NCBI GenBank assembly: GCA_024762975.1
Contig: JANTGJ010000007.1
Location: 1 to 53,189 of the forward strand
Reading direction: 5' to 3'
DNA from: Candidatus Krumholzibacteriia bacterium
Lineage (GTDB): Bacteria > Krumholzibacteriota > Krumholzibacteriia > LZORAL124-64-63
DNA: 53,189 nt
Under the pieces are notes generated by a model that was not told the origin of the DNA, searched no databases, and saw only the letters and a list, made by a program, of their open reading frames with translations. The first letter of the stretch is position 1, and each line of letters starts with the position of its first letter. Both the position numbers and the translations under genes were made by a program. Positions 1,132 to 1,443 of the stretch are shown here, one piece after another.

Positions 1132-1159
1132 TGATCGGCAGAGAGAGAGCAAAACTTGA
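1132..1159 (-). promoter_or_regulatory. Sigma-28 (FliA)-type promoter for flagellin
   Basis: On the minus strand TCAAGTTT (1152-1159), a 12-nt spacer and GCCGATCA (1132-1139) closely match the enterobacterial FliA consensus TAAAGTTT-N11-GCCGATAA. The match, the position upstream of flagellin and the lack of a better sigma-70 site support it. Predicted leader is about 100 nt. Confidence 0.75.
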
Positions 1160-1200
1160 GTGTTTTCTTGAAAAAAATCGGAAGCACTCGGAGACCCGAG

Positions 1201-1280
1201 CCGACGGAACCGGGAAGAATCGGAAAGAATCGGGAAGAACCGGGAAAGATCGTCACCGTTCGGGAAGAATCCGGAGGAAC
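1201..1280. repeat. Tandem 10-bp repeat array, consensus CGGGAAGAAT
   Basis: Eight contiguous decamers in register: five are CGGGAAGAAT or differ by one or two bases, the outer ones are more diverged, and one (1251-1260) is strongly degenerate. The array lies between the 3' end of tRNA-Lys and the flagellin promoter. On the minus strand each unit reads as a pyrimidine-rich TTCTTCCCG-like element. It does not belong to any plausible gene. Confidence 0.8.
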
Positions 1281-1299: not shown

Positions 1300-1375
1300 T
1301 GGTAGGCCGCGCTGGACTCGAACCAGCCACATTCTCCTTAAAAGGGAGATGCTCTACCTGATGAGCTAGCGGCCC
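1300..1375 (-). tRNA. tRNA-Lys (anticodon TTT)
   Basis: A 76-nt cloverleaf with a 7-bp acceptor stem (GGGCCGC with GCGGCCT, one G-U pair), an anticodon stem TCTCC/GGAGA around the loop CTTTTAA with anticodon TTT at 1340-1342, a T-arm containing GGTTCGAGTCC, and an encoded CCA at the 3' end (1300-1302). Its own strong promoter is at 1415-1443. Confidence 0.97.
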
Positions 1376-1414: not shown

Positions 1415-1443
1415 AATATAGAAGAACCCCGCTGGAGTGTCAA
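1415..1443 (-). promoter_or_regulatory. Sigma-70 promoter for tRNA-Lys
   Basis: Minus strand TTGACA (1438-1443), spacer of exactly 17, TATATT (1415-1420). The -35 box is a perfect match and the -10 box matches five of six. The box begins about 20 bases past the purA stop and the tRNA starts about 35 bases after the predicted start point. Confidence 0.8.

Follow-up and report, generated by a model that had tools for sequence, protein, structure and literature searches.

In the E. coli tyrT operon, 178-bp repeats lie downstream of the tRNA genes and termination is Rho-dependent. The locus described here resembles tyrT in arrangement, since in both a tRNA transcript ends in a 3' trailer that contains repeats, but here the repeats are decamers. 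A by-product RNA of tyrT is mentioned in part of one report (PMC2965389). As set out in excerpts of its description (PMC6407284), RhoTermPredict applies to Rho utilisation (rut) sites a rule of cytosines every 11-13 nt. Our array shares with rut sites so modelled a length of about 80 nt, C above G, weak structure and an apparently untranslated position, but it has a period of 10 instead of 11-13, does not pass the spacing rule and is known here from sequence alone. Another published descriptor of Rho sites, given in part of PMC9160355, counts YC dimers 9-13 nt apart. Short intergenic minisatellites of prokaryotes, as portrayed in excerpts of PMC6749651, resemble the array in being short head-to-tail repeats that are rare in the genome and not spread elsewhere; the array differs in being small (80 bp), partly decayed and known here from one genome. 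Our literature searches turned up no paper on arrays of decamers in the trailers of tRNAs, although such papers may exist.

The array and its setting

The window, a stretch of 53,189 nucleotides from a Candidatus Krumholzibacteriia bacterium (genome G000), carries on its minus strand, in 5' to 3' order, a tRNA promoter, tRNA-Lys, the array, a bulged hairpin with a T7 tract, a sigma-28-type promoter and a flagellin gene (Table 1). FliA and Rho are both encoded in the genome. An earlier note on this DNA had described eight decamers in register between the tRNA end (1300) and the sigma-28-type promoter (1159). Both register and placement were confirmed, although only five of the eight rows are good copies (8-10 of 10 matches to the plus-strand consensus CGGGAAGAAT; the transcribed, minus-strand unit is GATTCTTCCC) and three are decayed (7, 5 and 4). 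Row by row from 1201 to 1280 the matches number 5, 10, 9, 9, 8, 4, 10 and 7, while the rows flanking the array reach 2-5. At lag 10 the array matches itself at 46/70 positions, where the window averages 17.4 (sd 3.8); no lag from 4 to 60 gives a higher value anywhere in the window, and this is also its strongest period-10 signal. TRF reported period 10 at 1207-1249. When the trailer was resampled 100 times with a first-order Markov model, the period-10 value was always lower than the one observed. The array thus consists of head-to-tail copies, in register and above chance, as expected of a minisatellite.

Table 1. Features of the tRNA-Lys/flagellin locus (window coordinates)
Feature	Position	Strand	Evidence or remark
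Sigma-70-type promoter of tRNA-Lys, TTGACA-17-TATATT	1415..1443	-	11/12 consensus matches
tRNA-Lys (TTT), CCA encoded	1300..1375	-	ARAGORN; Rfam tRNA, 64 bits
Decamer array, 5 good + 3 decayed copies	1201..1280	-	TRF, lag self-match, resampling, row-by-row consensus
Bulged hairpin, 4 + 5 bp stems	1178..1204	-	-11.1 kcal/mol; 9/60 first-order resamples at or below -11.1, weak by itself
T7 tract, U-tract of candidate terminator	1171..1177	-	12-18 nt upstream of -35 box
Sigma-28-type promoter, TCAAGTTT-N12-GCCGATCA	1132..1159	-	15/16 matches
Flagellin, 275 aa	199..1023	-	Pfam Flagellin_N and Flagellin_C above cut-off

Rfam matches at E values up to 1 consisted of the tRNA alone, with no other RNA family, and the predicted fold of the trailer was no better than that of its shuffles (z +1.04), on which ground a folded RNA element was rejected. 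On the other side of the tRNA, the leader holds a small CGCC-GGCG hairpin followed by T7 (1405-1384, minus strand), and longer leader hairpins were seen by eye in many relatives. We also considered a coding reading of the array, since long frames do cross it, and rejected it: the spacers of relatives lack the array, and orthologues differ in the length of the frame that is open ahead of flagellin (292-386 aa without the cut-off locus L009; 285 aa in G060). The array does not, then, lie in a coding frame conserved in relatives, a situation that the earlier note had envisaged.

The spacer in related genomes

Flagellin was searched for in 58 genomes, 40 of which gave a match at E up to 0.001, and in the 38 genomes of the family, 10 of which gave a match at E up to 1e-60. 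The tRNA-Lys gene lies just upstream of flagellin in nine of the ten family loci, the tenth (G032) being cut by a contig end, and the order tRNA-Lys, sigma-28 promoter, flagellin is kept in nine family genomes. Promoter matches in the other seven orthologous loci (L002-L008) number 14-16, and the tRNA promoter boxes have similar counterparts in G001, the one congener in the comparison. Between these conserved flanks the spacer is free to vary in length, with 170-291 nt from tRNA to start codon in eight loci. Comparison of the array across related genomes, a check proposed in the earlier note, gave no copies to count: with one genome compared per species, the array is absent from the same spacer in all eight other species' loci (the seven orthologues and G060). 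Because it is absent from the relatives' spacers, it is not part of a conserved gene, again as expected of a minisatellite.

The decamer was also sought at other sites. Pattern searching revealed no second array in G000, the only neighbouring hits being those at the tRNA-Lys/flagellin locus, and TRF gave no period-10 row in a 400-kb sample of this genome (two in 400 kb of G001). A dispersed repeat was rejected, as pattern hits in G000 away from this locus carry two or three mismatches and those in the family one or two, with a single one-mismatch hit in G017; the hit contexts inspected by eye (7 + 16) contained no arrays.

The bulged hairpin (-11.1 kcal/mol) and T7 just downstream of the array form the best candidate for an intrinsic terminator in the G000 spacer, although the consensus terminator scan did not list this hairpin. 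Relatives have terminators of -12.9 kcal/mol or below in the same spacer in G021, G034, G018, G026 and G060 and a weak one (-3.3) in G012; in G009 the hairpin was counted by eye, as the scan misses a hairpin followed by TTCC ahead of the T-run. The hairpin here is thus weaker than in five of the eight relatives. The very short spacer of the congener G001 contains neither an intrinsic terminator, by the hairpin scan, nor an array. Since four of the seven tRNA/tmRNA trailers examined in G000 gave no hairpin by the same scan, the lack of a strong hairpin behind a tRNA is not special in this genome.

In the 35 nt before the -35 box, a T-run of at least five was found at 12 of 13 tRNA-linked sigma-28 promoters (seven of the eight orthologous flagellins L001-L008 and all five further tRNA-linked loci) versus 2 of 12 unlinked flagellin promoters. 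In these counts, nine of 21 unlinked loci were excluded because their promoter matched poorly (below 13), the tRNA-linked L107 was kept with a match of 12/16, and the tRNA-linked L098 was left out, as no good promoter was found there. From this contrast, the T7 in G000 may well be a terminator or what remains of one, set directly against the sigma-28 promoter. In most loci the tRNA-Lys terminator has its U-tract about 10-20 nt ahead of the -35 box (for example, window 1177-1132), and this tract could double as an A/T-rich promoter element.

Origin and possible functions of the array

The array is in our view probably a short minisatellite, specific to this species and in decay, that lies in the 3' trailer of the tRNA; any contribution of Rho would be at most incidental. 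Of the readings offered in the earlier note, a slippage-prone minisatellite fits best, given five good and three decayed units, no second array, and absence from the relatives' spacers. The array would have arisen by slippage or duplication, through tandem copying of a local stretch of the untranslated DNA that separates tRNA-Lys from the flagellin promoter, and it would then be transcribed within the pre-tRNA 3' trailer and trimmed off. Transcription from the tRNA promoter probably ends in part at the weak hairpin and T7 just downstream, like the hairpins at the same place in relatives. We infer that the array has no selected function. In favor of the minisatellite, the T-run characteristic of tRNA-linked loci has been kept downstream of the array. 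Against it, the composition of the array is extreme for the genome, in the top 0.06-0.08% for pyrimidines and YC dimers. Should the array do no more than take up room, it would be a minor case of fast spacer turnover next to a conserved tRNA.

That composition favors the proposal that the trailer loads Rho and halts the tRNA-Lys transcript ahead of flagellin, offsetting a weakened intrinsic terminator, a proposal that we consider unlikely but the strongest of the alternatives. The earlier note had pointed to pyrimidine-C pairs every 10 nt and few G, resembling a rut site. The YC-richness was borne out: compared with 45152 80-nt windows from both strands of a 453-kb genome sample (all sampled DNA, mostly coding), the array 80-mer has 26 YC dimers (reached by 0.08% of windows) and 56 pyrimidines (0.06%). 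The scarcity of G is moderate (C/G 1.65, as high in 3.4% of windows). Its predicted fold is weak (MFE -14.8, where 400 random windows average -25.1) and the excess of C over G extends from about 1324 to 1114, so that C lies above G in a weakly structured stretch of about 78 nt, as in modelled rut sites. The spacing fared less well. No 78-nt window in 1166-1299 passes the 11-13 nt cytosine rule, which 32% of background windows pass, and while YC chains with N9-13, the spacing of the published descriptor (PMC9160355, in part), place the array in the top 0.3-1% of 22576 windows, they are reached by 3-11% of 1000 shuffles of the array's own letters. The spacing of the YC dimers thus goes little beyond what the letters of the array would give by themselves: its composition would allow Rho to load, with little gained from the ten-base period. 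The trailer of G009, moreover, is equally YC-rich (27) without an array, intrinsic hairpins occupy the spacer in most relatives, and the congener does without either feature there. The weaker local hairpin and the presence of Rho agree with a Rho-loading trailer; G000 and G001 each have two rho-like genes, of which one passes the curated Rho cut-off and the other falls short of it (G000:C35:14785-15867 and G000:C79/C94; G001:C16 and C29), the better one in G000 being apparently split over two contigs. A more specific history, that the genus lost its strong intrinsic terminator and that in this species a slippage-made pyrimidine decamer repeat replaced it as a Rho-loading insulator, seems to us less likely still. 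If the array does load Rho, it would illustrate how a terminator that separates a constitutive tRNA from a regulated flagellin gene can come from a short tandem duplication.

The congener raises a different question. Its tRNA-Lys leader contains three decamers, GATCTTCGCT/GATCTTCTCT/GATCTTCGCG (GATCTTCKCT), which have the core TCTTC in common with the G000 trailer array and have exact matches in that leader only; this leader array is one of the two TRF rows in G001. Among 30 tRNA-Lys loci, 29 with a readable trailer, the G001 leader and the G000 trailer alone gave period-10 signals that were reached in 0 of 100 resamples. The trailer of L105 gave a period-10 signal at 2/100, and L116 gave 0/100 at period 9, inside a GC-rich hairpin. 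Decamers recurring beside the same tRNA in a congener are the one feature that the minisatellite reading leaves unexplained: with period-10 arrays rare elsewhere, two of them with a TCTTC core by one tRNA in one genus are a coincidence poorly explained by pure slippage. A shared genus trait for pre-tRNA processing or stability, in the leader of one species and the trailer of the other, could account for the restriction of the motif and for signals that no resample attained, but the arrays are on opposite sides of the tRNA, differ in sequence and come from two genomes only, and the G000 trailer is predicted to fold no better than its shuffles; we judge such a trait improbable. On the minisatellite reading, by contrast, a second decamer array of another sequence on the opposite flank of this tRNA gene is what one would expect of a site prone to local duplication.

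The earlier note had also suggested helically phased sites for a flagellar regulator, to which a DNA-bending regulator may be added. A period of 10 bp, about one turn of the helix, and the position upstream of the sigma-28 promoter are suited to this, but none of the eight orthologous spacers has the array, and it has no hit on the contigs that carry the other close flagellin genes of G000. Sigma-28 promoters are not generally known to need an activator. We consider phased regulator sites very improbable.

Flagellin-like frames after tRNA-Lys

At L103, L104, L106 and L107 (genus g10), a low-complexity protein of 121-131 aa stands in the place of flagellin, after tRNA-Lys and a sigma-28-like promoter. 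Its ends are flagellin-like (start MSxxIPG, end NLVxATVLNLL), no Pfam family was found in it above the cut-off, and it may be a shrunken flagellin. At L098 (G059), tRNA-Lys is followed by a 108-aa mini-flagellin-like frame that matches Pfam Flagellin_C at an E value of 5e-4 (20.7 bits, below the cut-off of 23).
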